The position numbers and the translations under genes are program-made. Below the pieces are notes generated by a model. The model was not told where the DNA came from and ran no database searches. It saw nothing but the letters and a program-made list of their open reading frames with translations. Below, piece after piece: positions 1 through 42,330 of a stretch of 64,000 nt of DNA. The stretch's first letter is position 1. Each line of letters begins with the position of its first letter. This stretch comes from an uncultured Acidimicrobiia bacterium. Lineage in GTDB: Bacteria > Actinomycetota > Acidimicrobiia > Spongiisociales > Spongiisociaceae. The stretch spans positions 2,888,548-2,952,547 of the forward strand of contig OY282370.1 in the NCBI GenBank assembly GCA_958295745.1. Direction: 5' to 3'.

Positions 1-1955
1 CGACCTTCATCAGGTCGCATGACGGCATTCTACGCCTCATCATCAGCCCGCACCTGAGCGAGTCGGACAGAGATGCGATCCGGGATGGTGTAACCTCTCC
101 GCAGGATGCGGCCGAGTCTCTTCTCAAAGACCTATTCATCACCAGCGATTATATTCAAGAACATACTCTGAAGTGCTTGACATGGCTCCTTCGCAAGGGC
201 CGTATCGAATTAAAGGTCGCAATCATGCCGTCCGCGGTATTTCATCCCAAGGTATGGCTCTTTAAGGATCAAGTATCCATACTAGCAGTTCACGGGTCAA
301 GTAATATGACCCATTCGGGTATCAATAGAAATATAGAACAGGTCTCCATCTCAAAAGGCTGGGAAGATAACAATCAGTATTACATCACAGATAAACTCGA
401 GAGACAATTCTCCGAGCTCTGGGAAGATAGAGACGAGAATTGTTTAGTTGTTGGTATGCCTGATGCCATACGAGAGCACTTACTAAGAACATACGACTCA
501 GAAATTCCACCGAGTGAATCCGATATTAAAGATCTCTATGCAAAAGCAATGCTAATATCCAACGACTACACCTGGAAATATGTTCTTCGCCGAAAGCAGT
601 TTGCTATACCTTCAGAACTCCGTTATGAAGATGGGCCATATGCTCATCAAGGCAAGGCAGTAAGGGCTTGGTGTGATGCTGGATACCGCGGAGTATTGGA
701 AATGGCTACCGGTTCAGGAAAAACTATTGCGGCTATGATTGCTGCCCATAGATTGTATGAGGAGCGAAAGCCTTTGTTGATAGTTATTTCAGCTCCGTAT
801 GTTCCTCTTATACAGCAGTGGTGTGATGAAGTAGCCTTATTTGGGATCACTCCTATAAATCTTTCTGAAGCCGGAGGACCTAAAGGTCGAGCAAGAGAAT
901 TAGGGATGCTTAGGAGACAACTCAAAAATGGATCTCTTGATGTCGGAGTTGTTGTTGTTTCTCATACCACTTTAGCAAATACCAAATTCAAGTCTGATCT
1001 AGGAAGCTTTAGTTGCGATAAGCTACTCATAGCAGACGAAGCTCACAATCTGGGTAGTGAAGGATTCATCTCAGATATGCCTAAGTTTTTTAATCATCGG
1101 CTGGGTTTGTCTGCTACCCCTGTTCGACAGTACGATGAGACTGGTACGGAAGCTCTTTTTGAATTCTTAGGACCGGTAGTATTCCGCTACAGCCTTGAGG
1201 AAGCTATAGGTAACTGCCTGGTAGAGTACGATTATTTTGTTCATCCAGTAGAACTAACAAAGATTGAGGTGGATAGATGGTTTGAACTGACCCAACGCAT
1301 TGGTGCTAATGCTTGGCGAGCAGATGACAAAGGCAACCCCGACGAATTTTTACAGAAGCTGTTAATAGCACGCCGTGCTATTCTTGAGGTAGCAGAGAAC
1401 AAGATAGTAACACTAGAAACCTTATTGAATCGCGAAAGTCTTTCAGACCTTCACCACACTCTGATCTATGCTTCTGATAAAGATCCTGAACAGTTGAAGG
1501 ATGTAAATCAATTACTCATAAACCGGAGAATTCTCTTCCATCAGCTCACTCACGAAGAGACTAGAAATAAAACAAAAACAACACGCCTCATTAAAGAGTT
1601 CCAAGAAGGTTCTCTAAATGTGTTAACTGCTAAGCGCGTGTTGGATGAAGGCGTGAATATTCCTCAAATCAAGCGGGCATTTATTATGGCCAGCACGACT
1701 GTAGAGCGCCAATGGATACAACGCAGAGGTCGTTTGCTTAGGAAATGCAAGGAGATCGACAAAACACATTCAGAAGTTCATGACTTTGTTGTAACACCAC
1801 CTAACACAGACAAAACTAGTGATGATGATATGAAGGCGCTTATTGGTTCTGAACTCAAGAGAATTCAAGCCTTTGCTTGCCTGGCACGCAATGCCGGGAG
1901 ACCGTCTGGACCGCTCCCCATTATTGATCGACTTTTAAAGTTGATCAACAAATAA
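1..1955 (+). CDS. PLD-like nuclease / SF2 DEAH helicase fusion, 5' end outside window
   Basis: The reading frame is open from base 3, so the true start lies upstream; the first internal start codon is the TTG at 177. The visible N-terminal part resembles a phospholipase-D-type nuclease domain: FHPKVWLFKD (about 240-270) followed by GSSNMTHSG, the usual HxK and GSxN signature. A superfamily 2 helicase follows: Walker A ATGSGKT near 705-725, DEAH box IADEAHN near 1030-1050, motif III LSATP near 1105-1120 and motif VI QRRGRLLRK near 1715-1745. PLD-helicase fusions are frequent in restriction and anti-phage systems. It is followed after 14 bases by a small gene and then by an SMC-like ATPase, so it is probably the first visible member of a defence operon. 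Base composition is clearly AT-richer than the chromosome after 6.7 kb, suggesting acquisition. Only one PLD half is visible; the second motif may lie upstream or in a partner subunit. Confidence 0.85.
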   Translation, partial: TFIRSHDGILRLIISPHLSESDRDAIRDGVTSPQDAAESLLKDLFITSDYIQEHTLKCLTWLLRKGRIELKVAIMPSAVFHPKVWLFKDQVSILAVHGSSNMTHSGINRNIEQVSISKGWEDNNQYYITDKLERQFSELWEDRDENCLVVGMPDAIREHLLRTYDSEIPPSESDIKDLYAKAMLISNDYTWKYVLRRKQFAIPSELRYEDGPYAHQGKAVRAWCDAGYRGVLEMATGSGKTIAAMIAAHRLYEERKPLLIVISAPYVPLIQQWCDEVALFGITPINLSEAGGPKGRARELGMLRRQLKNGSLDVGVVVVSHTTLANTKFKSDLGSFSCDKLLIADEAHNLGSEGFISDMPKFFNHRLGLSATPVRQYDETGTEALFEFLGPVVFRYSLEEAIGNCLVEYDYFVHPVELTKIEVDRWFELTQRIGANAWRADDKGNPDEFLQKLLIARRAILEVAENKIVTLETLLNRESLSDLHHTLIYASDKDPEQLKDVNQLLINRRILFHQLTHEETRNKTKTTRLIKEFQEGSLNVLTAKRVLDEGVNIPQIKRAFIMASTTVERQWIQRRGRLLRKCKEIDKTHSEVHDFVVTPPNTDKTSDDDMKALIGSELKRIQAFACLARNAGRPSGPLPIIDRLLKLINK

Positions 1956-1969
1956 TAAGGAGGCAATAG

Positions 1970-2191
1970 ATGCCAGTCAACAACCTAAAGGTAATACAGA
2001 TTATTCGCGATGAGCTGGATAAGTTAGAACAGAGAGGTAGAGGCTATCGAGAGGAACTTGGAGAAACAATTGTGGAGGTTATAGAATACGTGCAACAGAA
2101 TCGGGTTAGCAAGACATATGTGCAGAAGAATATTAATGATAAAGTCAATGCGCTCGGGCTTTATCTCTATAAGAATCGATCAGGTTCATAG
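1970..2191 (+). CDS. 73-aa hypothetical protein in defence-like operon
   Basis: A short protein starting at ATG 1970, preceded by a good Shine-Dalgarno (AAGGAGGC, 7-8 bases upstream). It is predicted mostly helical and charged, with no recognisable motif, cysteine pair or membrane segment. It sits 14 bases after the helicase stop and 23 bases before the SMC-like ATPase, and shares their AT-rich composition, so it is almost certainly co-transcribed. A small helical protein in this position could be an adaptor between the helicase and the ATPase, but that is inference from position only. Confidence 0.7.
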   Translation: MPVNNLKVIQIIRDELDKLEQRGRGYREELGETIVEVIEYVQQNRVSKTYVQKNINDKVNALGLYLYKNRSGS

Positions 2192-2214
2192 GGATTGAAA
2201 GAGAGGTATTAAAG

Positions 2215-4338
2215 GTGCGACTGATTCAAGCCAGATTTACCAACTTCCGTCTTCTGCGGGATCTTACTTTAGATTTTTCGACAGATACGGGCAAGAATTT
2301 AATCGTTGTACGAGCAGCGAATGAGTCTGGTAAAACCACAGTCTTGTATGGACTTCAATGGGCATTGTACGGCAATGATGCTCTTCCTATTCCACGCCGG
2401 AATTTCCGTATGCATCCTGTTAACTGGGAGGCTTCGGAAGTAACAAAGGTTCCTATCAGAGTAGAGGTAGATTTTGAAATAAAGATATTTCGTCGTAGCA
2501 AGACATATGATTTGATTGAGACTATTAGAAGGTATCGGATCATTCGCTCTACATATGACAGGATAGACGGAGCGGAGTGGTACCCTGGGCCAACAAATGC
2601 AAAGCTGTTTGAGATAACATCAGAAGGTAGTATACCACAGGAACCTCCAGAGTCCCGGATTAAAGAACAACTACCAGAAAACTTGCGAGAAGTATTCTTT
2701 ACAGATGGTGATCGTGCTCTTAGCTTTATTGATACTGATATTGATACTAAGACAAAGAGAACTAGAGTGCAACATGCTATCAGATCATTGTTAGGACTTG
2801 ATGTGATTGAAGAGGCTCGTGACCGAGTAAAGACAACTGCGCGTGGTGTGAACACTCGTGTGCGTAGCTTGGTTCGAGATAATAATCTCGCGCGAATTTC
2901 CGAACGAATCACAGAGATATCCGATGAAGAACTAGAGTTAGAGAATCAAATTAAGGATGCCAAACAGCAATTCATGTCATTTGATGAACGGCTTGTTGAA
3001 ATCGAAAAAGAGATAGAAGAAGCCTTGTCTAAGGGAAATAAGGAAGAAATGCGAAAACAACTAAATAATCTACGTAGCGATGTGACTCTAATTGGTCATG
3101 ATCTCAAAAAGGCTAATATCACTCATGCTGACTTGCTGAAAGATGTATTTCTATCTCGAGAGCTTAGTGCTCCAATGATATCGCTAGGTCTTTCTAAGCT
3201 TGATGCTCTCCGCGATCAAGGCAAGATACCCAATAGCACCATACCAGTGCTGGAAGAGAGATTGACTTCTCCTTTCTGTATATGTGGTGAAGCATTGAAT
3301 AAGCAAGATAAAGACTCAGAGCGGCGGCGAGAAAATATTAAAAGACTTATAGATGAAGCTCGCGATTCTGATATCCTTCAAGGTATCGTTACAGAACTAT
3401 ATTATGCTTCCCTTTCTTTATCTATGGATAGAACTATCGACCGAACTTGGATTTCCAGATATGAGGAAGTAGCTGCCCTGAGGGATGGTTTACTAATCCG
3501 AAGTAAAGGACTAGGTCAGCAGATGCGTAGTTTAGAAGTAAAAATGGACCAAATCCCCAACACAGATCTTCAGATACTAAGAGATACTAAATCTTCTTAC
3601 AAAAAGCAACGTGACAGATTTAACGAAAAATGGACTCTGCTCAAACCAGATTTAAACAATCTCAGACAGGAACAAACAAAACTAATTAGTGAGCGAAACC
3701 GCCTTCTTAAAAGCCAGCAAAAGGGAGACAGAATAATGGCAGAGCTTGAAGTAGCTCAAGATATTTTGACCGTTCTATCAAACTCATATCAACGGCTTAC
3801 AAATGAAGAATTAAACAAAGTTAGTAACAAAATGAACTCTGTATTTCTTGAAATGATTGTAGCTGATCCTGATCAAGGAGCCATTATCCATAAGGCAGAG
3901 ATAACGAAGCAGTTCGATATTATAGTCTACGGTCCTAATGGAAGACAATTGAATCCAAATATAGACCTCAATGGCGCTTCACGTCGAGCATTGACCCTGG
4001 CGTTTGTTTTAGCTTTGACTAAAGTAAGTGAAGTTGAAGCCCCCAATGTCATAGACACACCGCTCGGTATGATGGAGGGACTTGTTAAGACTTCTGTTCT
4101 GACGACAGCCATAAAGGAAAGCTCCCAATTGATTTTGCTACTTACCCGCTCAGAAATAAAAAATTGTGAGGAAATAATTGACGCAAAAGCAGCCCATATC
4201 ATAACTCTAACTAATCCTGCTCATTATCCTAAAATGCTAGTCAACGAGCCTCCTTCAACAACAGGGGCTATTGTCAAGTGTGGATGCAACCATCGTCAGG
4301 AATGTGAGATTTGTCAGCGTCGAGCGGAACTTGATTGA
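2215..4338 (+). CDS. DndD/Rad50-like SMC-family ATPase
   Basis: A 707-aa ATPase with the split architecture of SMC/Rad50/DndD proteins. Walker A (NESGKTT) lies at residues 37-43 after the typical RFTNFRLLRDL strand. A long charged coiled-coil region covers about 200-540 and is interrupted by a C-x-CG pair at C355/C357, reminiscent of a zinc hook. The C-terminal half carries an ABC-signature-like NGASRRALTLAFVLAL and the Walker B/D-loop IDTPLG (613-618), the form seen in DndD of DNA phosphorothioation clusters. The start is GTG 2215, preceded by GAGAGGTATTAAAG. No dndC/dndE partners are visible, so a phosphorothioation role cannot be claimed. With the upstream PLD-helicase it fits a DNA-end-sensing or translocating defence complex. 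AT-rich like its neighbours. Confidence 0.85.
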   Translation: MRLIQARFTNFRLLRDLTLDFSTDTGKNLIVVRAANESGKTTVLYGLQWALYGNDALPIPRRNFRMHPVNWEASEVTKVPIRVEVDFEIKIFRRSKTYDLIETIRRYRIIRSTYDRIDGAEWYPGPTNAKLFEITSEGSIPQEPPESRIKEQLPENLREVFFTDGDRALSFIDTDIDTKTKRTRVQHAIRSLLGLDVIEEARDRVKTTARGVNTRVRSLVRDNNLARISERITEISDEELELENQIKDAKQQFMSFDERLVEIEKEIEEALSKGNKEEMRKQLNNLRSDVTLIGHDLKKANITHADLLKDVFLSRELSAPMISLGLSKLDALRDQGKIPNSTIPVLEERLTSPFCICGEALNKQDKDSERRRENIKRLIDEARDSDILQGIVTELYYASLSLSMDRTIDRTWISRYEEVAALRDGLLIRSKGLGQQMRSLEVKMDQIPNTDLQILRDTKSSYKKQRDRFNEKWTLLKPDLNNLRQEQTKLISERNRLLKSQQKGDRIMAELEVAQDILTVLSNSYQRLTNEELNKVSNKMNSVFLEMIVADPDQGAIIHKAEITKQFDIIVYGPNGRQLNPNIDLNGASRRALTLAFVLALTKVSEVEAPNVIDTPLGMMEGLVKTSVLTTAIKESSQLILLLTRSEIKNCEEIIDAKAAHIITLTNPAHYPKMLVNEPPSTTGAIVKCGCNHRQECEICQRRAELD

Positions 4339-4353
4339 TATAAAGAAGGGAAC

Positions 4354-4830
4354 ATGACACAACAATATCATAACCCGTTCTCGGCTGTGTATTTGGTGTA
4401 TCCGAAAGACCAGGGCGAGTATTATCAGCAATATTGCCAGGGAACAGGGTTAGGATCAACTATTGACCGTAGTCCTTTTCCTAGGATGGTAGACTTATGG
4501 TTTGCCGGATTGTCCATCGCAGCTCATGAGAGACTGCAACCAGTTGATCTTACAGCTCGCAAGCCTTCCAATATGGTATACGGCTCAATATTTGATCGCG
4601 ATAGCTGGCGGGTCCAAGTTGTTATGCTCATTGCGATCGCAGTAGAGGATAATATAGAGGTAGTAGGAAAACCTAATCGTATGATGGCGATCGCCAATGG
4701 ACTAGCCGCAGCTGGGGTGCCTCATATCGTTGAGATGCTTAAGAGAGGCGACCAGGAGCCAATCTGGAACCTGTCGGATGCTCTAGCTGATCTTCTGGGT
4801 GGCGAAGAGACAACCGACAAGCATACCTAG
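4354..4830 (+). CDS. 158-aa unknown protein, last gene of the island
   Basis: Starts at ATG 4354, sixteen bases after the SMC-like ATPase, with AAGAAGGG as ribosome-binding site. I do not recognise the family. It has an aromatic N-terminus (NPFSAVYLVYP), a central segment WRVQVVMLIAIAVEDN and a helical C-terminus, and appears soluble. Co-orientation, spacing and AT-rich composition tie it to the helicase/ATPase operon. Its TAG stop (4828-4830) overlaps the stop of the convergent methyltransferase (4827-4829) in a shared CTAG, so the two transcription units meet with no spacer. A sensor or DNA-end-binding accessory role is possible but unsupported. Confidence 0.75.
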   Translation: MTQQYHNPFSAVYLVYPKDQGEYYQQYCQGTGLGSTIDRSPFPRMVDLWFAGLSIAAHERLQPVDLTARKPSNMVYGSIFDRDSWRVQVVMLIAIAVEDNIEVVGKPNRMMAIANGLAAAGVPHIVEMLKRGDQEPIWNLSDALADLLGGEETTDKHT

Positions 4831-6350
4831 TCCTTTACACCCATGGTCGAGTGGGCTGCACCTATTAGATGTTTCTCGAATGGGAGAGTAGCCTGCAATA
4901 CGGAGCTGTCAGACCATCGGGGGAGGGTTACCCCGGTTTCTTCGGCTAGCAGCTCTAGGTCGAGGTTTGCCAGTAGTCGAGCTGTTATCGGTCGCTTTGC
5001 GTCCCAGAAGACCAGGGAACCGAAGAACCCTCTGGCGGCTTCCGAGTTGAGCAGGCCGGTGAGCAGATCGGCGTCGCGGCGGGTTCGGCAGGGCAGAAAG
5101 TAGCAGGTGTCATCGAGCACGATAGGTTTTCCCCCGGCAGGTCCGACGCATCGGAAATCGAGGCGCTTGTAGAAGCCTGATATAGCAACCTTCCAGGGAG
5201 CAAAGCTGTACGGTCCTACACCGAAGATGGAGAACCGGGGCCGGTTTCGGTAGATAGAGCTGGAGCGGCCGTCGAGCCGGGCGGCGTGAGATTGCAAGTA
5301 CGCCCAGGTACGGGGGGTTTCACGTTCGACTTTCGAAGTATCTTCTCCTATCGATCTCTGTGGGACAAGCATGAAGCGCGTCGGCGTCGGGATCTGCTTC
5401 ATCAGCTCGGAGCTCTTGAGCATGGGATACAGGTAGGTCGGTTCAAGGCTCACTACTTCGCCCAATCCGTTCTCGAAGGTATCCGAGCCTCTGGGGAGTA
5501 ACTCCATTACACGCGAACAATCGTGCTTCACGCCCGACCTCCACCTGAGTGGAGAAGGGCCAGATAGATACCCATAGGTGTCATAAGCGCCAAGGTCGGC
5601 CACGAGCTTCCCGTCGCGGTAGGCGAACGTCGATTCGGGCGCAGGCGCCTCGAGCCCCAGATATACGGCGCATTCTCTCGAGGCGGAACCGGGTTCGAGG
5701 ATACAGACCAGCAGGCACGCATCGACCGAGACGCCGAAGTGCTCGCCCGCGTCGATCAGGTAGACGGACGAGGCCGAGATCTGTAGATTCCGTCGCCAAG
5801 CATGATGGAGCACCTTCCGGGCGACGGTGGTCTTACAGAGCATCGCAAGCACCGCGTCCTTCCCCGTGAGGCACTCCAGGAGATGCGAAATCATCCACTC
5901 CGAGATGTCGAAGTTGCTCTTGCCGGTGAGAGCGTCGAGGCCGTTCATACCTTGAGCATTGGACTTGATCGGTAGGTTGTCACCGTTCCAGACGCCCACG
6001 TCGGAGTTGGTAACCCAGGGTGGATTGCCAACAACGAGGACCGGCGATTGAAGACCACTCAGCGCCGCGGGCCAGTCCTTTTCGAAAAAGTTCTCGCAAC
6101 CGACCTCTGCCCGCGTAACCGACTTGGCTGTTTGTACATGGTGTGGGTTGATCTCGAACCCGAGGAAGCGCCCGCATTCGGGAAATACATCCACGGAGGC
6201 CCGCAGGAACGAACCTGTGCCGCAGGTCGGCTCGACTACCGACCCCGGAGACACCCCCAGGCGGCGGAGCACCCCGCATACTCTGCGGGCGAGAGCGTCA
6301 GGAGTCTGGAAGTCCCCGAATTCGGTTTTTGCCTTTCTGGCCACGTTCAA
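4827..6350 (-). CDS. N6-adenine DNA methyltransferase (class I, NPPW type)
   Basis: A type IIG/BREX-like adenine methyltransferase of about 507 aa. An early FGDFQTP segment precedes SAM-binding motif I (VEPTCGTGSF, residues 39-48). Catalytic motif IV NPPW is at 109-112, and the C-terminal half (for example LLTGLLNSEAARGFF) resembles target-recognition regions of Eco57I/TaqI-type enzymes. I place the start at TTG 6350, which overlaps the stop of the upstream ORF (TTGA); GTG 6344 is an alternative. The frame stays open upstream to 6752, but that part translates to low-complexity sequence typical of a wrong frame. It is convergent with the helicase/ATPase operon, with shared stop bases. It could mark self DNA for that system or be a solitary modification enzyme; no endonuclease is recognisable beside it. 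Confidence 0.85.
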   Translation of the reverse strand: MNVARKAKTEFGDFQTPDALARRVCGVLRRLGVSPGSVVEPTCGTGSFLRASVDVFPECGRFLGFEINPHHVQTAKSVTRAEVGCENFFEKDWPAALSGLQSPVLVVGNPPWVTNSDVGVWNGDNLPIKSNAQGMNGLDALTGKSNFDISEWMISHLLECLTGKDAVLAMLCKTTVARKVLHHAWRRNLQISASSVYLIDAGEHFGVSVDACLLVCILEPGSASRECAVYLGLEAPAPESTFAYRDGKLVADLGAYDTYGYLSGPSPLRWRSGVKHDCSRVMELLPRGSDTFENGLGEVVSLEPTYLYPMLKSSELMKQIPTPTRFMLVPQRSIGEDTSKVERETPRTWAYLQSHAARLDGRSSSIYRNRPRFSIFGVGPYSFAPWKVAISGFYKRLDFRCVGPAGGKPIVLDDTCYFLPCRTRRDADLLTGLLNSEAARGFFGSLVFWDAKRPITARLLANLDLELLAEETGVTLPRWSDSSVLQATLPFEKHLIGAAHSTMGVKD

Positions 6351-6661
6351 CTTACCCGCATAATTCCATTGACGATGCCTGCTTTCTCTATGACTCTCCG
6401 GTACTGAAGCTGCCATTGCAGAGCATTCGAGATGGTCAAATACCCCAGTGTCGGAGGATTGGCCAGTAGCTCTTCTGCGAGTTGTACCGTGTCGGTATCG
6501 TCGATCGGTAGGTTCCGCACCCGAACACCGCAAGACCAACCTAACAGCCGTGTTCCAGCATTCTCGGTACTGTCCGGCCTGCCCTGTATCGGCTCCATCG
6601 TCGGCGGGCGTCGGTGTTTCTTTCGCTTTCCGACCTCCAATGTATGGGAGGGATGTGACAC
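6347..6661 (-). CDS. small hypothetical ORF upstream of and overlapping the methyltransferase start
   Basis: An ORF of up to 104 aa ending at 6347 in the sequence IVNGIMRVS, its TGA overlapping the TTG start of the methyltransferase gene. The C-terminal half (LAEELLANPPTLGYLTISNA, then a Gln/Arg-rich helix) reads like real protein, whereas the first 35 residues are low-complexity and may not be translated. The arrangement suggests translational coupling. It could be a short partner of the methyltransferase or the 3' remnant of a longer gene lost when the island joined the chromosome near 6.6 kb. Function unknown. Confidence 0.4.
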   Translation of the reverse strand: MSHPSHTLEVGKRKKHRRPPTMEPIQGRPDSTENAGTRLLGWSCGVRVRNLPIDDTDTVQLAEELLANPPTLGYLTISNALQWQLQYRRVIEKAGIVNGIMRVS

Positions 6662-6769
6662 TTTGTGGTCGGCGTACCTCGAGATCGGATCGGTCCGGCA
6701 TCCCCCGGATCGCAGGCCTTCGGTCGTAACATGGGGGCCTGATCTGATTCACAGACGGGCAGGGCGTAC

Positions 6770-15514: not shown

Positions 15515-15539
15515 ACCGATCCGATGGCGGGATCGATGG

Positions 15540-15613
15540 TCGGGCTGGCGGGATTTGAACCCGCGGCCTCTTGACCCCCAGTCAAGCGCGCTGCCAAGCT
15601 GCGCCACAGCCCG
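15540..15613 (-). tRNA. tRNA-Pro(GGG)
   Basis: On the minus strand the sequence folds into a cloverleaf: acceptor CGGGCTG paired with CAGCCCG, D-stem GCGC/GCGC, anticodon stem CTTGA/TCAAG enclosing CTGGGGG (anticodon GGG) and T-arm GCGGG-TTCAAAT-CCCGC. The four bases following the acceptor read ACCA (15537-15540), so discriminator A and a CCA end seem to be encoded. Reads proline codon CCC. Confidence 0.95.
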
Positions 15614-15706: not shown

Positions 15707-15775
15707 TCAAGTGGCTATGTAGACGTTCTTGAGATCGGTGTAGTAGTCGAGGACGCAGGCCAACCATTACCCACA
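15707..15775 (-). pseudogene. 3' remnant of an aldehyde dehydrogenase gene
   Basis: The minus strand reads CVLDYYTDLKNVYIAT followed by TGA at 15707-15709. A tail of the form YTDLKNVYI is the characteristic C-terminus of class I aldehyde dehydrogenases. No dehydrogenase sequence continues upstream of about 15775; instead unrelated sequence and the Jag-like chimera follow. The matching N-terminus sits at 17105-17300 on the same strand, so both are parts of one interrupted gene. Confidence 0.7.
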
Positions 15776-15842
15776 GAGAAATCGGCCACAAAAGCCCTCG
15801 GCCAGAAGCAACCTGCTCCCTTCTCGCCTCGTTTCGGCCATT

Positions 15843-16676
15843 TCAACTCGCTGGCCAAGCGGCGTACCCATTGCCGATCTGCGTCTCACAAGGGTACCCA
15901 TCCTCGTCATTACCATCCCGACGGCCCCAATTAAACTTCGAACCCGCCGACCGAACCATGTCTCGTAGCTCGTCGACAGTTCCGCGATCCGGCCAATCTC
16001 CGCAAGACACCTCCTTAAGATCAGAAGCCCTCAATCTCCCACTCGCCGAAGTCGTCCGTGCTGTGGTTGTGGTCGGAGCCACTGAAGTTGTCGGTGCTGT
16101 GGTTGTGGTCGGAGCCACTGAAGTTGTCGGTGCTGTGGTCGTGGTCGGAGCCACTGAAGTTGTCGGTGCTGTGGTCGTGGTCGGAGCCGCCGAAGTTGTC
16201 GGTGCTGTGGTCGTGGTCGGAGCCGCCGAAGTCGTCGGTGCTGTGGTCGTGGTCGGAGCCGCCGAAGTTGTCGGAGCATATCCGTCGCCGATCGCCTCGG
16301 TCTCCTCGCCGCTAAACGCCCCCAACAACGCAGCTACACCAAATATCAACAACACACTAATCGATACAAACCAGCCGATACAATTACCAACTCTTACAGG
16401 CTGCTTGCTTCTATCGGGCTGGCGCCCCGAGGGTTGTTTCTGCCCCGAGGGTCTCCTCTTGCGCCCGAAGCGGCCCCTTCGCGCCCGCTTCGGGCGGGGC
16501 TGGGGCTTGACGCGAACGATGGCGTCTTGTCGGCCGATTCCAAGAAAGCCGCGCTGAGGTTCTTGTAAAATTTCCACCTCTGCTCTGGCTTCTTCGATGC
16601 CCAGTTCCTCGAGGGCGGCCTTGACGGCCACCTCTACCGAGATGCCTTCGACCTCGACCCACTCTCCGGCCACCAT
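15843..16676 (-). CDS. chimeric protein: Jag N-domain, membrane segment, Pro/Thr repeats, Excalibur-like end
   Basis: A 277-aa ORF with ATG 16676 and GGATGAG upstream. Residues 5-56 (WVEVEGISVEVAVKAALEEL to GFLGIGRQDAIVRV) are a clear Jag N-terminal domain, normally the start of the KH/R3H RNA-binding protein Jag encoded after yidC. The usual KH and R3H domains are absent. Instead there is a basic linker (57-95), one membrane segment (about 98-122, GWFVSISVLLIFGVAALLGA) and six near-identical 12-residue PTTSAAPTTTTA-type repeats (about 135-210). The C-terminus has CGDWPD and DGNDEDGYPCE, the pattern of Excalibur calcium-binding domains. The tail is probably extracellular. It lies 8 bases after a decayed yidC tail, so the first 55 codons come from a yidC-jag copy and the rest was joined on. 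Confidence 0.75.
   Translation of the reverse strand: MVAGEWVEVEGISVEVAVKAALEELGIEEARAEVEILQEPQRGFLGIGRQDAIVRVKPQPRPKRARRGRFGRKRRPSGQKQPSGRQPDRSKQPVRVGNCIGWFVSISVLLIFGVAALLGAFSGEETEAIGDGYAPTTSAAPTTTTAPTTSAAPTTTTAPTTSAAPTTTTAPTTSVAPTTTTAPTTSVAPTTTTAPTTSVAPTTTTARTTSASGRLRASDLKEVSCGDWPDRGTVDELRDMVRSAGSKFNWGRRDGNDEDGYPCETQIGNGYAAWPAS
16040..16278 (-). repeat. 36-bp in-frame tandem repeat (six units)
   Basis: Six consecutive 36-base units, each coding 12 residues of the PTTSxAPTTTTA type, differ at one or two positions (A/V exchange and a few synonymous changes). There are no spacers and the frame is kept, so this is a coding minisatellite prone to slippage, producing a flexible surface stalk. 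Confidence 0.85.
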
Positions 16677-16683
16677 ATTTTTC

Positions 16684-17105
16684 TCATCCTCTCCTACGTC
16701 GGTTTCGCTTTTTCCGCGACCCCTGCTGTTTAGACGGCTTGTCGCCGTCGTCCGGCTTCTTGGGGCACATATGAAATCGCCCCGAACACCAGCGGCAGGA
16801 TCTTCGTGATCCGCTGCATGCTCTCCACCTGCGGGTTGCTGGCCTGCGGCTTGCCGGGAGGACTCAGCAACTTCTGCTGCAGGAACCCGGTCCCCACCAC
16901 TACGGCCACCACCAGCAGATAGGGGAGGTGCTGATCGAGAACAACCCTTCCGCCCCCACCACCTCCGAGGGGGCCAGACTCAGGTCCATGGTGAGAAACA
17001 AAGGCGGAGAAGCCCCGTCCGCCAGCGCCTCGGCCAGAGCCGATCCGTTCCATCTCGAGGGCGGTCAGCGGGGTCAGTCCGGCAGGGCCAAAGGTCGAAG
17101 TCTGT
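16684..17105 (-). pseudogene. decayed yidC fragment (membrane insertase)
   Basis: Read on the minus strand across frames, the segment preserves YidC/Oxa1 features in the right order: PLTALEMERIGSG, then PLFLTMDLSLAPSEVVGAEG (the FLGMDL-like region), then DQHLPYLLVVAVVVGTGFLQ and SMQRITKILPLVFGAISYV. The C-terminal basic tail KKPDDGDKPSKQQGSRKKRN follows, with a TGA at 16684-16686. At least two frameshifts and an internal deletion (after GAISYV, where PAGLVLYW-like sequence should follow) make it non-functional. The order yidC then jag matches the normal operon, so this is a displaced partial copy. Its right end runs into aldehyde dehydrogenase sequence near 17105. Confidence 0.7.
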
Positions 17106-17300
17106 TCCTCGATTAGCCTCCCCGACCCGGCGCAGCAGAGCGGCCCGGTCGCAGGGCGCGACGTTGCGCCACGTCTCGAAGGCCGCCTTCGCCTTGGCAA
17201 CGGCCCGGTCGGCCTCCTCGACCCCGGCGGCGGGTATCCGCGTGATGACCTGCCCGGCGGCGGGCTCTACGATCTCCGTGGTATCTGCCAATTCGTTCAT
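17105..17300 (-). pseudogene. 5' remnant of an aldehyde dehydrogenase gene
   Basis: ATG 17300 begins MNELADTTEIVEPAAGQ, then AAGVEEADRAVAKAKAAFET, the standard N-terminal part of NAD-dependent aldehyde dehydrogenases (EEADRAVAKAKAAFxxW). After AALLRRVG the frame is lost, though RLIEEQT can still be read in another frame, and the sequence then becomes yidC-like. The cofactor-binding and catalytic portions are gone. It is divergent from the aminotransferase operon at 17.4 kb, whose proposed pathway would normally use such an enzyme. Confidence 0.72.
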
Positions 17301-34628: not shown

Positions 34629-37271
34629 ATGCCCACCCTGGTACTGCTCGACGGCCACAGTCTGGCCTACCGCGCCTTCTACGCACTCCCCCCCGACCTG
34701 GCCACCCGTTCGGGTCAGGTGACCAACGCCGCCTACGGGTTCACCTCCATGCTGATCAGACTGCTGGGCGACCATTCCCCGGAGGGCCTGGCGGTGGCCT
34801 GGGACGTGGGGCGTTCCACCTTCCGCACCGAGGCCTTCCCCGAATACAAGGCGCAGCGGATGTCAGCCCCCGATAACTTCCGAAGTCAGCTGCCGTTGAT
34901 CCGCGAGGTGCTGGACGTCATGGACATCACCCAGTTGGAGCTCAAGGGCTACGAGGCGGACGATGTGATCGCCAGCCTGGTCCGCCGGATGGAGAAAGAG
35001 GGTTGGAACGTGCTGGTGGTTACGGGCGACCGCGACTGCTTCCAGCTGGTCGGCCCCAAAGTCAACGTGGTGTACACGCGGCGCGGGATCACCGACACGG
35101 TGATGGTCGATGCGGCCTGGGTGGAGCAGAAATACGGGATCCGGCCCGACCAGTACCTCGACTATGCGGCCCTGCGGGGCGACGTTTCGGACAACCTGCC
35201 AGGGGTTCCGGGAGTGGGGGAGAAGACCGCCTCCCGTCTGGTATCGACCTTCGGGGATCTGGAAGGGGTCTTCGAGCACCTCGACCGCCATCCGCCCCGC
35301 CTGCGCCGGAACCTGGCCGATCATCGGGAGCAGGTCTTTCGCAACCGCTCCCTCATGTCGTTGGTCGATGATCTGGATCTGGGTCTGGACCCCGACCGCC
35401 TCCTGCGCACCGTTCCCGACCGAAACGCCGCCCGGGAGATATTCGACCGGCTGGAGTTCTTCACACTGTGGACCCGCCTGATGGAGATGGAAGACGGGGT
35501 GTCGGAGCCTTCCGAGACGCAGATCGAGGTGAAGGTGAGGGCCCTGCGGACCCCGGAGGATGCGGCCCGGTTCACCGGTTCCCGGGGCCTGGTGATCGAA
35601 CCTGTCTATGACGATGGGAAGCTGGCCGGACTGGCGGTGATACCGGACGTTTCCCGGTCGGACGAGGGCGCGGAGCAGGTATTCGTGGCGCAGATCGAGG
35701 CGCTGGAGTACTTGGCGCCCGCCTTGGCCGACCCCGGAGTGGAGATCTCCGTGTACAAATCGAAGGAGCTGTTCCGCAGCCTGTTCGAGATGGGCCGCGA
35801 TCTGAACGGGTTGGTGTTCGACCCGGTGCTGGCGGGTTACATCATCGATCCCGCCGCCCGCTCCGATTCTCTCGAGGACCTGGCCTCACGTTACCTGGGG
35901 GTGAGGCTGGTGAGCGCCCGTGAAGAGGGCGGCGACTCCGGGCAGGGGATGCTGGACTTCGGCGGCGGTCCGGATCTGGAGGCGGCGGGCTGCCGGGCGG
36001 CGGCGGTGAGGAGGCTGCGTCCGGTCATGGAGTCCAAACTGGAGGAACGCGACCAGAGCGATCTGCTGAACGGCATGGAGCTTCCGCTGGCGCCGGTTCT
36101 GGCCCGGATGGAGATGGCCGGCATCCTGGTCGACCGCGGCTACCTGGAGGGCATGAGCGATACCTTCCGCAGCGAGCTGGCGGAGCTGGAAACCGAGATC
36201 CATGAGCTGGCTGGGGAAACCTTCAACATCAACTCGACGCTGCAGCTTCGTCGGGTGCTGTTCGGCAAACTCCAGCTCCCGGTTGTGAAGAAGACCCCGA
36301 AGGGGGCGCCGAGCACCGATGCCTCGGTCCTGGCCAAGCTCGAGGACGCCCATCCCATGGTGGCCCGGCTGCTCCGTTACCGCGAGATCGAGAAACTGCG
36401 CAGCACCTACGTGGACGGCTACCTGCCTCTGGTAGGGCGGGACGGTCGCATCCACGCCCACTTCAACCAGACAGGGGCGTCCACCGGACGGCTGTCCTCC
36501 GACCGGCCCAACCTCCAGAACATCCCGGTGCGTTCCGAGACGGGTCGGATGATCCGCCGGGCCTTCGTGGCGCCCAAGGGTTACTTGTTCATCGTGGCCG
36601 ACTACTCGCAGATCGAGCTGCGGATACTGGCTCACCTGTCGAAGGACCCCGGGCTGATGGAGGCGTTCGACGCCGGCGAGGACATCCACACCGCAACCGC
36701 CGCCCGGGTCTTCGGCTTTGAGTCCGATCTGGTCACACCCGAGCTGCGCCGACGGGCCAAGGCCATCAATTTCGGCCTCCTCTACGGGATGGAGGCGTTC
36801 GGGCTGGCCGACCGGCTGAAAATCAGCCGAACAGAGGCCCGGGAGCATATGGACACCTATTTCCGCCAGTTCCCCCTCGTCCGCGACTACATGAGGTCGG
36901 TTGTGGCCGAGGCTCGCCGCACCGGCTATACGACCACGTTGTTCGGTCGGCGCCGCTACCTGCCCGAGCTGGCCTCGGACAACGCTCGCATCCGCCAGAT
37001 GGGGGAGAGGATGGCGCTCAACGCCCCTGTGCAGGGATCGGCCGCCGACGTGATCAAGATGGCGATGATCGAGCTGGCCCCGCGGCTGGAGGAACACCCC
37101 GCCAAGATGCTGCTGCAGGTTCATGACGAGCTGGTTCTGGAGGCCCGCCGCGAGGCGGCCGGAGAGGTCGTCGGGCTGGTCGAGGAGGTGATGGAAGGGG
37201 TGGGCAACCTGGATGTCCCGCTCACGGTGGACATCGCCACCGGCGCCGATCTCGCCTCCGTAAAGGGCTGA
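34629..37271 (+). CDS. polA: DNA polymerase I
   Basis: An 880-aa repair/replication polymerase. The N-terminal 5'-3' exonuclease (LLDGHSLAYRAFYAL, GYEADDVIASL, VTGDRDCFQLV, LRGDVSDNLPGVPGVGEKTA) is followed by a 3'-5' exonuclease-like domain lacking recognisable catalytic acidic motifs. The polymerase domain has motif A IVADYSQIELRILAHLS, the O-helix RRRAKAINFGLLYGM and motif C LLQVHDELVLEA. ATG 34629. The last about 160 bases of the gene plus the downstream leader are repeated at 39467-39797 and 42028-42330, so the present 3' end is one of three copies flanking inserted modules. Confidence 0.96.
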   Translation: MPTLVLLDGHSLAYRAFYALPPDLATRSGQVTNAAYGFTSMLIRLLGDHSPEGLAVAWDVGRSTFRTEAFPEYKAQRMSAPDNFRSQLPLIREVLDVMDITQLELKGYEADDVIASLVRRMEKEGWNVLVVTGDRDCFQLVGPKVNVVYTRRGITDTVMVDAAWVEQKYGIRPDQYLDYAALRGDVSDNLPGVPGVGEKTASRLVSTFGDLEGVFEHLDRHPPRLRRNLADHREQVFRNRSLMSLVDDLDLGLDPDRLLRTVPDRNAAREIFDRLEFFTLWTRLMEMEDGVSEPSETQIEVKVRALRTPEDAARFTGSRGLVIEPVYDDGKLAGLAVIPDVSRSDEGAEQVFVAQIEALEYLAPALADPGVEISVYKSKELFRSLFEMGRDLNGLVFDPVLAGYIIDPAARSDSLEDLASRYLGVRLVSAREEGGDSGQGMLDFGGGPDLEAAGCRAAAVRRLRPVMESKLEERDQSDLLNGMELPLAPVLARMEMAGILVDRGYLEGMSDTFRSELAELETEIHELAGETFNINSTLQLRRVLFGKLQLPVVKKTPKGAPSTDASVLAKLEDAHPMVARLLRYREIEKLRSTYVDGYLPLVGRDGRIHAHFNQTGASTGRLSSDRPNLQNIPVRSETGRMIRRAFVAPKGYLFIVADYSQIELRILAHLSKDPGLMEAFDAGEDIHTATAARVFGFESDLVTPELRRRAKAINFGLLYGMEAFGLADRLKISRTEAREHMDTYFRQFPLVRDYMRSVVAEARRTGYTTTLFGRRRYLPELASDNARIRQMGERMALNAPVQGSAADVIKMAMIELAPRLEEHPAKMLLQVHDELVLEARREAAGEVVGLVEEVMEGVGNLDVPLTVDIATGADLASVKG

Positions 37272-37440
37272 AACCCGCCTGCCCGGACACTCGCCGCGGC
37301 GTTCCGGATCCGGGCCGCCGTGGGCGTCCCGCCAACTGGTAACCTGTCGATAATTCCGTTACACGCCATGCGTTGCGGGAGCTTCTGATCCGGAGGTACA
37401 TACCCATGTTTATCGAATCGGCTGGCAAACTGGACCCTGC
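37114..37440 (+). repeat. polA 3'-end / leader repeat, copy 1 (functional polA end)
   Basis: From the CTGCAGG in polA motif C (37114) through the stop at 37271 and the noncoding leader with TGGTAACCTG to the ribosome-binding site GGAGGTACATACCCATG. Copies 2 and 3 match closely through the TGGTAACCTG element. Copy 1 alone keeps polA open and lacks the GCCGCG-hairpin seen in the others. Confidence 0.85.
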
Positions 37441-37447
37441 CCGATGA
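37406..37447 (+). CDS. 13-aa leader peptide coupled to AT-rich membrane gene 1
   Basis: ATG 37406 opens MFIESAGKLDPAR and ends in TGA 37445-37447, which overlaps the ATG (37444) of the membrane protein gene. GGAGGTAC lies at ideal spacing upstream. An equivalent MF-starting leader precedes the second module and rpsA, so the arrangement is conserved and probably drives translation of the downstream gene by coupling. Confidence 0.55.
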   Translation: MFIESAGKLDPAR

Positions 37448-39159
37448 AGCCACGGCCTTCTCCTCGGTCCTTAGGAACCAACCGTTATCAATTTGCTTCC
37501 CGTTCTATTTTCTATGTAGTTGTACCACCTATACTTGTTGTACTACCACTTTTAGGACTAGCCTTCCAATCTGATCAACGTACATATATCTACCACTTCG
37601 CCGCCCGATTGAACGTCAATCCCGTACTAATATTTGATTCAGTTTACTCTGAAATAGGTAAGTATCTCATAAAGGTTGGCAACTTTCGACCTATTGGTCG
37701 TTTAATAATATCGACTGAAGAATCATTGCGCTTTGATATAGCGGCTGCTACTGGAGTGCCACCACATATAGTACAGGGTATCATTAAGTTGATGATGATC
37801 TCAGCTCTTGCTGTGGTAGCTACTCGTCTTGTCTCAGTATTACATGGGTCCGCAGTACATAGATTTCAATCTAGGTTTGGAGAGAATAGATTTGTCGATA
37901 AGATAATTAGCCACCCTATAGTTGAACCTTTCCCTCTTATCCTAGCTTCTACTCTGATCGTTGCTGGCCTTCACCATCCATTATCTCTATTTCCTTTTTT
38001 CCTTATAGGTAATATGATCATTCTTCTGGGGATACCATTGTTGATGGCCTCTGATAAGGGTATCTATGATAAGGGTATTACTAAGAGTGAAATATTAGGT
38101 AACGTGCTGTTAGGGTTAGTTGCCGCTTCGACATACGAGCTTTTGTATCTCTTACCTATAGTATGTCTAATAATGATCTTGATACGTGCAAAGTTAGCAG
38201 GATTCACTGTTCAACTACTACTGCATAGCAAAGGCTTTTTTAGGTTTATTGTCTTTTGTAGTTCATTTGTCCTAGTCTTTATACCTATTCGAATCATGAT
38301 AGCAGTTAATTGTTCTCGAATTGATTGCTATGATGGAACCGAGATATCTTTTTCGGGATTATCATTCATACACTGGCTTGTTAGAAGTATATCGGGAGTA
38401 CCACTAGTTTATCCATTTATCAACAAAAATGCCCCTAAAGCAATGCCCAATGATCTAGATATAGTTAGCGATAACAAATGGCTAACTATTAGCTATCTTA
38501 TTCTGTTAGTCTTAGTGATAAGGGCCAGCATTAGATATGTTAGAAGCACTAGTCTTGGTATGTCATTCAGCGATAATAAAAGGTTATCTGTCTCAAATAT
38601 TATGGTCGGATTAACTTTTATAATTCTACCTCCCTTGTTGATAAGTTTAACAGGAACAGCACAGCGTTGGCAAGCTTCCGGATATGGTTATAAGCAATGG
38701 AGGGATTCGCTATTAGTCCAGATAGGTTGGGCCTTTTTGATATACGGAGTTGTAATCTATCTATTGTCAACTCTTGGTCTTAGAAGAGCACGAAAATTAG
38801 CTGATCGGAATACTGACTCCGTAAATATACGAGAGATATTCAGGTTTATCGTTATGGTAGTTGTACTCTTAGGGCTGGTATCGTCGGCGTTGATTGCTAA
38901 TAGCGTATATGCTACTGACCGCCGCTCTGAACAGTATACTAATTATTCCAACCTAATATCAACGGCGACTATAGAATTTGATAACTCCGAACTTGGTAAC
39001 GCAGTCCGTTGTCACTTGATCACCGCCTTTCCTGAAGGAACCCATTATAGCACAGATCGTTATATACAAAGTCTGAACGAACTTGCTCTCGCAAAGTATG
39101 ATTCGGAGTTTTGTCTTGACGGTGATCAAGAACACCCAGTAGGGGATGCATCGCCCTGA
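37444..39159 (+). CDS. AT-rich polytopic membrane protein, module 1
   Basis: A 571-aa protein with about ten hydrophobic segments (for example IFYVVVPPILVVLPLLGLAF near 20-40, MMISALAVVATRLVSVL near 110-130, IVMVVVLLGLVSSALIANSV near 470-490). A C-terminal soluble tail of about 70 residues contains two cysteines. I do not recognise the family; no glycosyltransferase, permease or enzyme motif is evident. Codon use is strikingly AT-rich inside a GC-rich chromosome, so it is surely transferred. Its ATG overlaps the stop of a leader peptide. Paralogous along its whole length to the gene at 39798-41543, and like it followed by an antisense nitrilase fragment. Confidence 0.8.
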   Translation: MKPRPSPRSLGTNRYQFASRSIFYVVVPPILVVLPLLGLAFQSDQRTYIYHFAARLNVNPVLIFDSVYSEIGKYLIKVGNFRPIGRLIISTEESLRFDIAAATGVPPHIVQGIIKLMMISALAVVATRLVSVLHGSAVHRFQSRFGENRFVDKIISHPIVEPFPLILASTLIVAGLHHPLSLFPFFLIGNMIILLGIPLLMASDKGIYDKGITKSEILGNVLLGLVAASTYELLYLLPIVCLIMILIRAKLAGFTVQLLLHSKGFFRFIVFCSSFVLVFIPIRIMIAVNCSRIDCYDGTEISFSGLSFIHWLVRSISGVPLVYPFINKNAPKAMPNDLDIVSDNKWLTISYLILLVLVIRASIRYVRSTSLGMSFSDNKRLSVSNIMVGLTFIILPPLLISLTGTAQRWQASGYGYKQWRDSLLVQIGWAFLIYGVVIYLLSTLGLRRARKLADRNTDSVNIREIFRFIVMVVVLLGLVSSALIANSVYATDRRSEQYTNYSNLISTATIEFDNSELGNAVRCHLITAFPEGTHYSTDRYIQSLNELALAKYDSEFCLDGDQEHPVGDASP

Positions 39160-39164
39160 TGTGA

Positions 39165-39466
39165 GACGCGTGGCACTGAAAGCGGTGGCGCCGAGAAGAC
39201 CAGACCCTTGGTGATGCGCTCGTATATCTCGGGGCGGCGGTCCCTGTAGAAAGCCCAGCGATGCCGGACCTCCTCGATCAGGTCGAGGTCCAGATCCCGC
39301 ACCACGACCTCGTCGGGAGTGTCCGAGGCGGTGCCGTCGATGATCTGACCCCCGGGGCGACGCGAAGTAGGAGCTGCCGTAGTAGTCTGTGTCTTCCAGG
39401 TTCTCGCTGCACACCCGGTTGATCGCCCCCACGAAGTACTCATTTGGCCACCGCCGCGGTGGTCCT
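39165..39466 (-). pseudogene. nitrilase-family (carbon-nitrogen hydrolase) 3' remnant, module 1
   Basis: The minus strand codes NEYFVGAINRV, then in shifted frame the equivalent of DTDYYGSSYFASPRG, then GQIIDGTASDTPDEVVVRDL, DLIEEVRHRWAFYRDRRPEI and ITKGLVFSAP. This is the C-terminal part of N-carbamoylputrescine-amidase/beta-ureidopropionase-like enzymes. It is frameshifted and lacks the catalytic Cys, Lys and Glu. It ends abruptly at CTGCAGG, where the second polA repeat begins. A longer version is in module 2. Confidence 0.75.
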
Positions 39467-39797
39467 CCTGCAGGGTTCATGACGAGCTGGTTCTGGAGGC
39501 CCGCTGCTAGGCGGCCGGAGAAGTCGTCGGGTTGGTCGAGGAGGTGATGGAAGGGTTGGGGAACCTGGATGTCCCGCTCACGGTGGACATCGCCACCGGC
39601 GCCGATCTCGCCTCCGTGAAGGGCTGAAACCCGCCTGCCCGGACGCTCGCCGCGCCGTTCCGGATCCGGGCCGCCGCGGCGTCCCGCCAAGTGGTAACCT
39701 GTAGACAGCCCCGGTGCCGCGTTGTCGCGGCCGGGTTCACTATCCAAAGGTACATACCCATGTTTACCAAATCGGGCGGCAAACCTGACCGGCCACG
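39467..39797 (+). repeat. polA 3'-end / leader repeat, copy 2
   Basis: Starts at CTGCAGGGTTCATGACGAGC and follows the polA end through AAGGGCTGAAACCCGCC to the leader. It carries an in-frame TAG (GCTGCTAGGCGG) absent from functional polA but shared with copy 3. A GCCGCG-TTGT-CGCGGC hairpin (39716-39731) lies between TGGTAACCTG and a degenerate ribosome-binding site (AAAGGTAC). Confidence 0.85.
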
Positions 39798-39801
39798 ATG
39801 A
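39760..39801 (+). CDS. 13-aa leader peptide coupled to AT-rich membrane gene 2
   Basis: ATG 39760 opens MFTKSGGKPDRPR; its TGA (39799-39801) overlaps the ATG (39798) of the following membrane gene. Same length and arrangement as the leader at 37406, with a weaker Shine-Dalgarno (AAAGG). Confidence 0.5.
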   Translation: MFTKSGGKPDRPR

Positions 39802-41543
39802 AGCCACGCCCCCCCTCCCAATCCTTAGATACAGGAGCCAGCCGTTATCAATTTACTTCCCGTTCTATCTTCTATGTAGTTGTACCCTCTGTACTTGTTG
39901 TACTACCACTTCTCGGACTAGCCTTCCAATCTGATCAACGTACATACATCTACCACTTCGCTGCCCGCTGGGATGCTGATCCTTTACTAAGATTCTGGAA
40001 CAATGCTAATCCCGTACTATCATTTATTAACTTTATCTCTAATATAGGAAGCTATTCATCAGGCAATTTTCGACCTATCGGTCGCTTAGTATTGTATTTT
40101 GAAGAATCATTGCGCTTTGATATAGCGGCTGCTACTGGAGTGCCACCACATATAGTACAGGGTGCTATAATGTTGATGATGATCGCGGTCCTTGCTGTGG
40201 TAGCTACTCGTTTTGTCTCAGTATTATGTGAGTCCGCAGTACATAGACTTCAACCTAGGTTTAGAAAGAATAGATTTGTCGATATAATAATTAGCCATCC
40301 TATAGTTGAACTCTTCCCTTTCATCCTAGCTTCTACTCTGATTATAACAACCCGTAAACATCCATTATCTTTATTTCCTTTTTTCCTCATAGTTAATGCG
40401 ATCATTCTTTTAGGAATACCAATATTGATGGCTTCTGATAAAGGTATTACTGATAAAGGTATTACAAAGCGTGAAATAATAAGTAATGCGCTATTGGGAT
40501 TAGTCACCCCTCTGACATACGAGCTCTTATATCTCCTACCTATAGTATGCCTGATAACGATCTTAGTACGTGGAAAGTTAGCAGGATTCACAGTTCGATT
40601 ACTACTGCATAGTAAAGCCTTTTTACGGTTTATTATTTTTATAGTTACATTCGTACCAGTCTTTATAACTATTCGGATCATGATAGCAGTGAATTGTTCT
40701 CTTATTGATTGCTATGATGGGTCTAATATAGTTCTTTCGGGATTATCCTTTAAGGGTTGGCTTAGTCGAGGTATATCAGGCGTACCATTCGTCTATCAAT
40801 TTATCGACAAGAACGCTCCTGTGATAATGCCTAACGATCTAGATATAGTTAGCAGTAATAAATGGCTAATTATTAGCTATTTTATTCTGTTTGTCTTAGT
40901 GGTAAGGGCTAGTATTAGATATGTTAGAAGCACTAGTCTCGGTATGTCATTCAGCGATAATAAAAGGTTATCTACCGCAAGTATTATAGTCGGATTATCT
41001 TTCATGATTCTACCATCCTTAATGATAAGTTTCACAGAGGGTGCACAACATTGGCAAGCTTCAGGAGTTGGTTATACTCAATGGAGGGATTCTCTACTAG
41101 TACAGATAGGTTCGGCTTTTTTGATATACGGAGTTGTGATCTACCTATTGTCCACACTTAGCCTTAGGAGTTCACGGAAATTATCTGTATTAGAGGACTT
41201 ACGCCATCACATACGAGAGATATTCAGGTTCATCGTTATGGTAGTTGTACTCTTAGGGCTGGTATCGTCGGCGTTGATTGCTAATAGCGTATATGCTACT
41301 GACCGCCGCTCTGAACAGTATACTAACTATACCAACCTAATATCGATGGCAACAATAGAATTTGATAACTCCGAACTTGGCAATGCAGTCCGTTGCTATC
41401 TAATCACCGCCTCTCCTGAGGAAGCCCGTTATAGAAGAGATCTTTATATACAAAATCTGAACAGGTTTGCCCTCGCAAAGTACGATTCGGAGTTCTGTCT
41501 TGACGGTGATCAAGAACACCCAGTAGGGGATACATCTCCCTGA
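39798..41543 (+). CDS. AT-rich polytopic membrane protein, module 2
   Basis: A 581-aa paralogue of the protein at 37444-39159, with the same start (MKPRP, SRSIFYVVVP), the same membrane segments and a near-identical end (CLDGDQEHPVGDTSP). The region after residue 55 differs by about 10 extra residues (WDADPLLRFWNNANPVLSF), and many conservative substitutions are spread over the length. The reading frame is intact despite the divergence, implying selection on the protein after duplication. AT-rich. Function unknown; roughly ten membrane spans plus a C-terminal domain with two Cys, probably exposed outside the cell. Confidence 0.8.
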   Translation: MKPRPPSQSLDTGASRYQFTSRSIFYVVVPSVLVVLPLLGLAFQSDQRTYIYHFAARWDADPLLRFWNNANPVLSFINFISNIGSYSSGNFRPIGRLVLYFEESLRFDIAAATGVPPHIVQGAIMLMMIAVLAVVATRFVSVLCESAVHRLQPRFRKNRFVDIIISHPIVELFPFILASTLIITTRKHPLSLFPFFLIVNAIILLGIPILMASDKGITDKGITKREIISNALLGLVTPLTYELLYLLPIVCLITILVRGKLAGFTVRLLLHSKAFLRFIIFIVTFVPVFITIRIMIAVNCSLIDCYDGSNIVLSGLSFKGWLSRGISGVPFVYQFIDKNAPVIMPNDLDIVSSNKWLIISYFILFVLVVRASIRYVRSTSLGMSFSDNKRLSTASIIVGLSFMILPSLMISFTEGAQHWQASGVGYTQWRDSLLVQIGSAFLIYGVVIYLLSTLSLRSSRKLSVLEDLRHHIREIFRFIVMVVVLLGLVSSALIANSVYATDRRSEQYTNYTNLISMATIEFDNSELGNAVRCYLITASPEEARYRRDLYIQNLNRFALAKYDSEFCLDGDQEHPVGDTSP

Positions 41544-41545
41544 TG

Positions 41546-42027
41546 TGAGACGCGTGGGCACTGAAAGCGGTGGCGCCGAGAAGACCAGACCCTTGGTGAT
41601 CCGTTCGCATATCTCGGGGCGGCGGTCCCTGTAGAAAGCCCAATGGTGCCGGACCTCCTCGATCAGGTCGAGGTCCAGATCCCGCACCACGACCTCATCG
41701 GAAGTGTCCGAGGCGATGCCGTCGATGATCTGACCCCTAGGCGACGCGAAGTAGGAGCTGCCGTAGTAATCGGTGTCCTCCAGGTCCTCGCTGCCCACCC
41801 GGTTGATCGCCCCCACGAAATACTCGTTGGCCACCGCCGCGGCGGGCTGCTCCAGCTCCCACAGGTACTTCGAATGACCCCGGGTGGTGGCGGAGGGGTT
41901 GAAGACGATCTTGGCGCCGGCCAGCCCCAGCTCACGCCAGCCCTCCGGGAAGTGGCGGTCGTAGCAGATGTACACCCCGATCCGGCCCACCGCGGTGTCG
42001 AACACCGGATATCCGAGGTTGCCGGGC
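41546..42027 (-). pseudogene. nitrilase-family 3' fragment, module 2
   Basis: The minus strand codes an undisrupted C-terminal half of a carbon-nitrogen hydrolase: NLGYPVFDTAVGRIGVYICY, then DRHFPEGWRELGLAGAKIVF (catalytic Cys in ICYDRHFPEG), ANEYFVGAINRVGSEDLEDT, DYYGSSYFASPRG and ITKGLVFSAP. The N-terminal half with the catalytic Glu and Lys is missing. The fragment begins exactly where polA repeat copy 3 starts (CCTGCAGGG). No start codon or promoter is associated, so it is a remnant. Confidence 0.8.
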
Positions 42028-42330
42028 CTGCAGGGTTGATGACGCTGGTTCTGGAAGCCCGCCGCTAGGCAGCCGGAGAGGTCGTCGGGCTGGTCGAGGA
42101 GGTGATGGAAGGGGGTGGGGAACCTGGATGTCCCGCTCACGGTGGACATCGCCACCGGCGCCGATCTCGCCTCAGTGAAGGGCTGAAACCCGCCTGCCCG
42201 GACGCTCGCCGCGCCGTTCCGGATCTGGGCCGCCGCGGCGTCCCGCCAAGTGGTAACCTGCGGACAGCCCCGGTGCCGCGTTGACGCGGCCGGGTTCGCT
42301 ATCCGGAGGATATACCCACTCATGTTCAAC
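42028..42330 (+). repeat. polA 3'-end / leader repeat, copy 3 (next to rpsA)
   Basis: Begins CTGCAGGGTTGATGACGCTG and continues as in copies 1 and 2, with the in-frame TAG seen in copy 2. It contains hairpin GCCGCG-TTGA-CGCGGC (42275-42290) and GGAGGATATACCC before the rpsA leader ORF. Being adjacent to rpsA, this is probably the original polA-rpsA junction. Confidence 0.85.
42275..42290 (+). promoter_or_regulatory. hairpin in rpsA leader
   Basis: A perfect six-base-pair stem GCCGCG/CGCGGC with loop TTGA, extendable by CCGG/CCGG around a bulge, located just after TGGTAACCTG and about 12 bases before the Shine-Dalgarno. It is conserved in copy 2 with one loop change. Possible site of leader-based control of rpsA; inference. 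Confidence 0.4.

Follow-up and report, generated by a model that had tools for sequence, protein, structure and literature searches.

Bacteria can join broken DNA ends through Ku and LigD, as Dupuy 2019 reportedly describes. The process of homology-facilitated or double illegitimate recombination is described for incoming DNA in a section of PMC4437187 that cites work on Acinetobacter baylyi. Ku/LigD end joining is characterized, in the relevant section of PMC10932983, by deletions and nucleotide insertions at the breaks, with mostly small deletions. Here we analyze a locus within a stretch of 64,000 nucleotides (hereafter the window; contig OY282370.1 of assembly GCA_958295745.1) from an uncultured Acidimicrobiia bacterium. 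The locus resembles the recombination process, as presented in that section of PMC4437187, in that non-homologous DNA was integrated with little or no homology and in that mosaic genes can result. It differs from it in that at least one donor looks internal, several donor pieces are involved and the event is known from its scar alone. The likeness to end joining, as outlined in PMC10932983, is that Ku is encoded in this genome and may have acted at the site; a difference is that the deletions outlined there are mostly small.

Results and discussion

The aldehyde dehydrogenase gene is reduced to three remnants

An initial annotation of the window had placed the two ends of an aldehyde dehydrogenase (ALDH) gene on the same strand, about 1.3 kb apart. 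This description is accurate, as the outer ends lie approximately 1.36 kb from each other, both on the minus strand (Table 1). The N-terminal remnant preserves 62 amino acids with up to 68% identity to the enzymes of relatives, and the C-terminal remnant at 15710-15751 is LDYYTDLKNVYIAT (amino acids 443-456). A third ALDH piece (at about 17042-17092, the second remnant of Table 1) had been missed, and it ends in the motif ACGGATCG, which is common to yidC. Amino acids from about 71 to 157 and from 176 to 442 are gone, and most of ALDH is deleted, not simply interrupted. The fragment that had been described as lodged inside the gene does lie between ALDH remnants, but as a replacement with several junctions.

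To locate the corresponding site in relatives, we used the neighboring gene, which encodes a 694-amino acid class-III aminotransferase/glutamine amidotransferase, among 14 other genomes of the same family. A close orthologue of this gene (77-78% identity) is found in nine of them; the other five have no close orthologue and lie outside the ALDH comparison. All nine relatives with an identified orthologous site carry an intact ALDH of 456-469 amino acids, divergent to the same aminotransferase gene, and the yidC-jag copy described below is absent from the ALDH site in every one of them. This refutes an ancestral yidC-jag locus at this position. Elsewhere in the genome, the best full-length ALDH is 45% identical to the enzyme of a relative, with none closer. 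The ALDH of a relative falls below the curated cut-off of each of the 25 NCBIfam families shown, and we therefore do not name its substrate.

On the 3' side, a tRNA-Pro(GGG) gene and der lie directly past the end of ALDH. Neither is present in the fetched loci of the nine relatives, so that synteny differs on that side.

Table 1. Features of the mosaic locus, with positions in the window
Feature	Position	Strand	Evidence
tRNA-Pro(GGG) beside the site	15537..15613	-	Absent from the fetched loci of nine relatives
ALDH C-terminal remnant and stop codon	15707..15751	-	Agrees with most relatives at 13 of 14 residues
Chimeric ORF, 277 amino acids: Jag_N, basic stretch, transmembrane helix, Pro/Thr repeats, Cys/Asp domain	15843..16676	-	ORF list, Pfam, hydropathy, structure model
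C-terminal Cys/Asp domain (CGxW..VDELR..V..AG..F.WG.RD..DG.PCE)	15864..16004	-	Homologous to the genome's own protein at C1:1198240
Six 36-bp units, APTTS(A/V)APTTTT (12 residues, Pro/Thr-rich)	16062..16277	-	Codon listing
Predicted transmembrane helix, chimera residues 99-119	16320..16382	-	Hydropathy peak 2.5; model helix 99-119, pLDDT in the 70s
Duplicated 5' end of jag (codons 1 to ~87), encoding Jag_N and the basic stretch	16413..16676	-	blastn 97%; Pfam Jag_N 1e-15
Duplicated 3' part of yidC with its basic tail and the spacer to jag	16677..17048	-	blastn against the intact locus (L009 6771-7259); 115-bp internal deletion and 1-base frameshift
Second ALDH remnant, amino acids ~158-175 (FGPAGLTPLTALEMERI), different frame	17042..17092	-	tblastn E ~2e-4 with relatives' ALDH
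ALDH N-terminal remnant, amino acids 1-62, to about amino acid 70 after a frameshift	17115..17300	-	Pfam PF00171 (Aldedh) 8e-12; tblastn with relatives' ALDH

A second, partial copy of yidC-jag replaces part of the gene

When aligned to its own genome with blastn, the region 16413-17048 proved to be a second copy of the 3' part of yidC and the 5' end of jag. Two blocks match the intact operon at 342 of 352 positions (E 3e-179) and 281 of 284 positions (E 5e-151), far beyond chance. Approximately 115 bp of yidC are missing between the two blocks, through a deletion at 16766, and the yidC part is frameshifted by a one-base gap at a G run. The basic tail and the start of jag follow in the normal yidC-jag order, exactly as had been read from the sequence. 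Of the 1.3 kb between the ALDH ends, yidC-jag accounts for only approximately 636 bp; a further 657 bp or so come from elsewhere and are joined in frame to jag.

The parent of the copied segment is C1:1382505-1383258 of the same genome, and the copy is thus a partial segmental duplication with its intact parent still present. This parent belongs to an intact rnpA-yidD-yidC-jag-parA-parB cluster at C1:1.38 Mb, beside dnaA/dnaN. On the minus strand, rnpA is followed by a yidD-like ORF, yidC (280 amino acids), jag (292 amino acids), parA and parB, with dnaA and dnaN on the other side. The identity of yidC and jag is supported also by Pfam (60KD_IMP at 1e-45 for yidC, Jag_N and R3H for jag), and the remaining genes were named from reading their translations. 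The proposal that an origin-proximal operon fragment had been copied into a catabolic gene is borne out by this position of the cluster and by the intact ALDH of the nine relatives. Besides the copy at the ALDH site, the 14 kb around the intact operon have just two matches in the genome, of 34 and 77 bases.

For the duplicate background on the side of the window, a 19,951-base query returned as long, high-identity matches only local 240-bp repeats. Such repeats, with 93-94% identity, occur at 37110-42390. In this region the 3' part of a carbon-nitrogen hydrolase gene (PF00795, profile positions 126-255 only) recurs in pieces that alternate with two AT-rich (approximately 35-43% GC) paralogous membrane ORFs (37444-39159 and 39798-41543), neither of which has a Pfam match. 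The window thus contains another catabolic gene that is broken and has fragments in duplicate. The window also hosts an AT-rich island at 177-6752, with PbeA- and PbeC-like defense genes, a small ORF (4354-4830) and a type II methyltransferase-like gene (PADLOC models).

The copy and its parent have both diverged

Reads of two loci may have been wrongly joined in assembly or binning, and all the junctions rest on a single assembly (96.87% complete) with an estimated contamination of 3.97%. We consider such an artifact very unlikely. A mis-join is expected to copy the parent exactly, while the copy differs from it by 12 bases and one gap, in addition to its own deletion. Moreover, erosion is evident in the ALDH remnants themselves, the contig spans 3.0 Mb (in a 3.3-Mb genome of 9 contigs) and the aminotransferase pair on the flank has the same arrangement as in the relatives.

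The jag block has a higher density of mismatches (10 of 352) than the yidC block (2 of 284 and one gap). We compared the ten mismatches of the jag block with the sequences of 12 relatives, with jag positions numbered so that the A of ATG is 0. The majority base is found in the copy at two positions (5 and 84) and in the intact jag at three (88, 207 and 208), with five undecided. At residue 31, Arg is found in the copy and in the aligned rows of all 12 relatives, and Gly in the intact jag. The ancestral bases are therefore split between the two, which suggests either that both have changed since their separation or that the copy derives from a sister strain. Some bases of the copy are ancestral and no longer present in the intact jag, so that the copy is more than a plain echo of the assembly. 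An echo of the parent is unlikely whichever origin, own or sister strain, holds.

The second of these origins would imply that DNA with a slightly different yidC-jag was taken up from a close strain and integrated illegitimately, with some similarity to ALDH as an anchor. The ancestral-looking bases of the copy (positions 5 and 84) and its Arg31, all at sites of divergence in the intact jag, agree with this scenario, as do the excess of mismatches in the jag block and the lower G+C content of 15756-16412 (0.583, compared to 0.69 in its neighbors). An internal duplication followed by mutation of the intact jag should, however, leave the same bases, and the extra segment has no virus or plasmid match. 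We regard uptake from a close strain as a tentative explanation with a limited chance of being correct.

The jag frame continues into a chimeric ORF

Between the jag copy and the C-terminal ALDH remnant lie approximately 657 bp of extra DNA (15756-16412), which had gone unnoticed. The jag frame runs on through this DNA without a stop to 15843, resulting in an ORF of 277 amino acids (Table 1). Jag/EloR proteins are composed of Jag_N and RNA-binding domains. The chimera is like them in starting with the Jag_N of the genome's own Jag, but it does not have the C-terminal RNA-binding part (R3H), and in its place it has a predicted transmembrane helix and an outer domain. Jag_N is the only Pfam domain detected in the chimera, which scores 43.8 bits against NCBIfam Jag_EloR, for which the cut-off is 145. 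The single-sequence structure model is poor (mean pLDDT 50.4) and usable only for the transmembrane helix and the outline of Jag_N.

The Cys/Asp domain has a sole, distant homologue in the genome (49% identity over 53 residues), hosted in a secreted-looking protein of 367 amino acids at C1:1198240. Because this paralogue reads in the same frame, the open frame of the chimera may be the natural one of the domain. With its Asp-rich loop ending in xDGxxCE, the domain presumably resembles calcium-binding domains of the Excalibur type, unlike which it has no Pfam match, Excalibur included, at E up to 10. The 367-amino acid protein (L072 1611-2714) bears, together with the domain similar to the C terminus of the chimera, two more repeated stretches of unknown type.

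We searched for a donor of the extra DNA in several data sets. At the DNA level it has no other match in its own genome. At E up to 1e-3, the Cys/Asp domain returned 2 of the 296 genomes of the class, namely its own genome with the one paralogue and one weak match, and nothing was confirmed in genome_contigs or viral_contigs. A 194-amino acid part of the chimera had no match in plasmids or phages. The transmembrane segment returned matches in 27 of 296 genomes (E up to 0.1, self included), which are weak and which we read as unrelated hydrophobic stretches. The low G+C content of the extra segment argues only weakly for a foreign source, as 15% of same-sized stretches of the window are as low or lower.

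The mosaic pseudogene may possibly hold a candidate newborn chimeric gene, to judge from the sequence. The product of such a gene, in which a membrane anchor ties the N-terminal domain of Jag to an outer domain, would be expressed, useful and under selection. In agreement with this, the 277 codons are stop-free, in the frame used by the homologue of the C-terminal domain, and the transmembrane helix is preceded by a stretch (residues 60-97) with 15 Lys/Arg and 1 Asp/Glu. An open frame is nonetheless sufficiently explained by chance, since two frames agree one time in three, and the repeats hold other frames open too, including a stop-free one on the opposite strand. Among jag codons 1-86, six of the eight codons that differ are amino acid changes, although these numbers are too small for a test. 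Finally, no Jag_N fusion like the chimera was found in any of the 14 relatives: 12 of them have exactly one Jag_N match and the other two, which are 72% and 78% complete, have none. Overall, a selected functional chimera appears improbable.

Illegitimate repair as the probable origin of the mosaic

At the ALDH-yidC junction, the 8-base ACGGATCG fits both partners and is present in the ALDH of three of the nine relatives. The microhomology of 8 bases is certain only if the lineage's own ALDH read GAACGGATCG, and six of the nine relatives differ there; depending on the ancestral ALDH, between 3 and 8 bases are shared at this junction. A single base is shared at the internal deletion of yidC. The genome encodes Ku (PF02735, 174.3 bits with a cut-off of 25) and has no match to the reverse transcriptase family RVT_1 (PF00078). 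Among the ORFs of at least 50 amino acids around the site, no transposase-like one stood out by eye, in line with what the initial annotation had reported. Taken together, the junction microhomology, the presence of Ku and the lack of a reverse transcriptase match favor end joining or microhomology-guided copying.

A retrocopy, in which the yidC-jag mRNA was reverse-transcribed and its cDNA integrated, would account for the collinearity of the copy with the operon and for its sense orientation relative to ALDH. Given that no RVT_1 match occurs in the genome, we assign it a minimal probability, bearing in mind that a former reverse transcriptase could have been lost.

Our preferred reading, to which we give a probability of roughly 70%, is that an illegitimate rearrangement, by end joining or microhomology, destroyed ALDH and captured chromosomal DNA, with the chimeric ORF mainly as a by-product. 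We infer the repair mechanism and the order of events as follows. The ALDH gene, divergent to the class-III aminotransferase/glutamine amidotransferase gene, would have been wrecked in this lineage by a single event or by several. With most of the gene gone, a yidC-jag fragment of the genome itself, or of a very close strain, would have been captured in its place. A piece of a secreted-protein-like gene may have been captured too, the source of 15756-16412 having not been found. As the route, we favor end joining, or template switching guided by microhomology, over a transposon or a retrocopy. The 277-amino acid ORF would have been open from the capture onward, and the former start region of ALDH may drive its transcription.

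Conclusions

The evidence is strong that the locus is a genuine mosaic scar, of a kind already known, in a catabolic gene that has been lost. We consider it doubtful, and put forward only as speculation, that a gene was caught here soon after birth. If so, illegitimate repair would have given the Jag_N of Jag, an RNA-binding regulator of cell elongation, a membrane anchor and an extracellular domain, and the resulting single-pass protein could compete with or localize the native Jag/YidC machinery.

Gene loss in bacteria is usually viewed as decay through stops and deletions. This scar still displays the loss, in three ALDH pieces, the capture, in a recent partial copy of a core operon, and the long chimeric frame that resulted, while nine relatives retain the ancestor intact. 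As a case, it is suited to studying the frequency at which new combinations of domains arise through illegitimate repair in bacteria.
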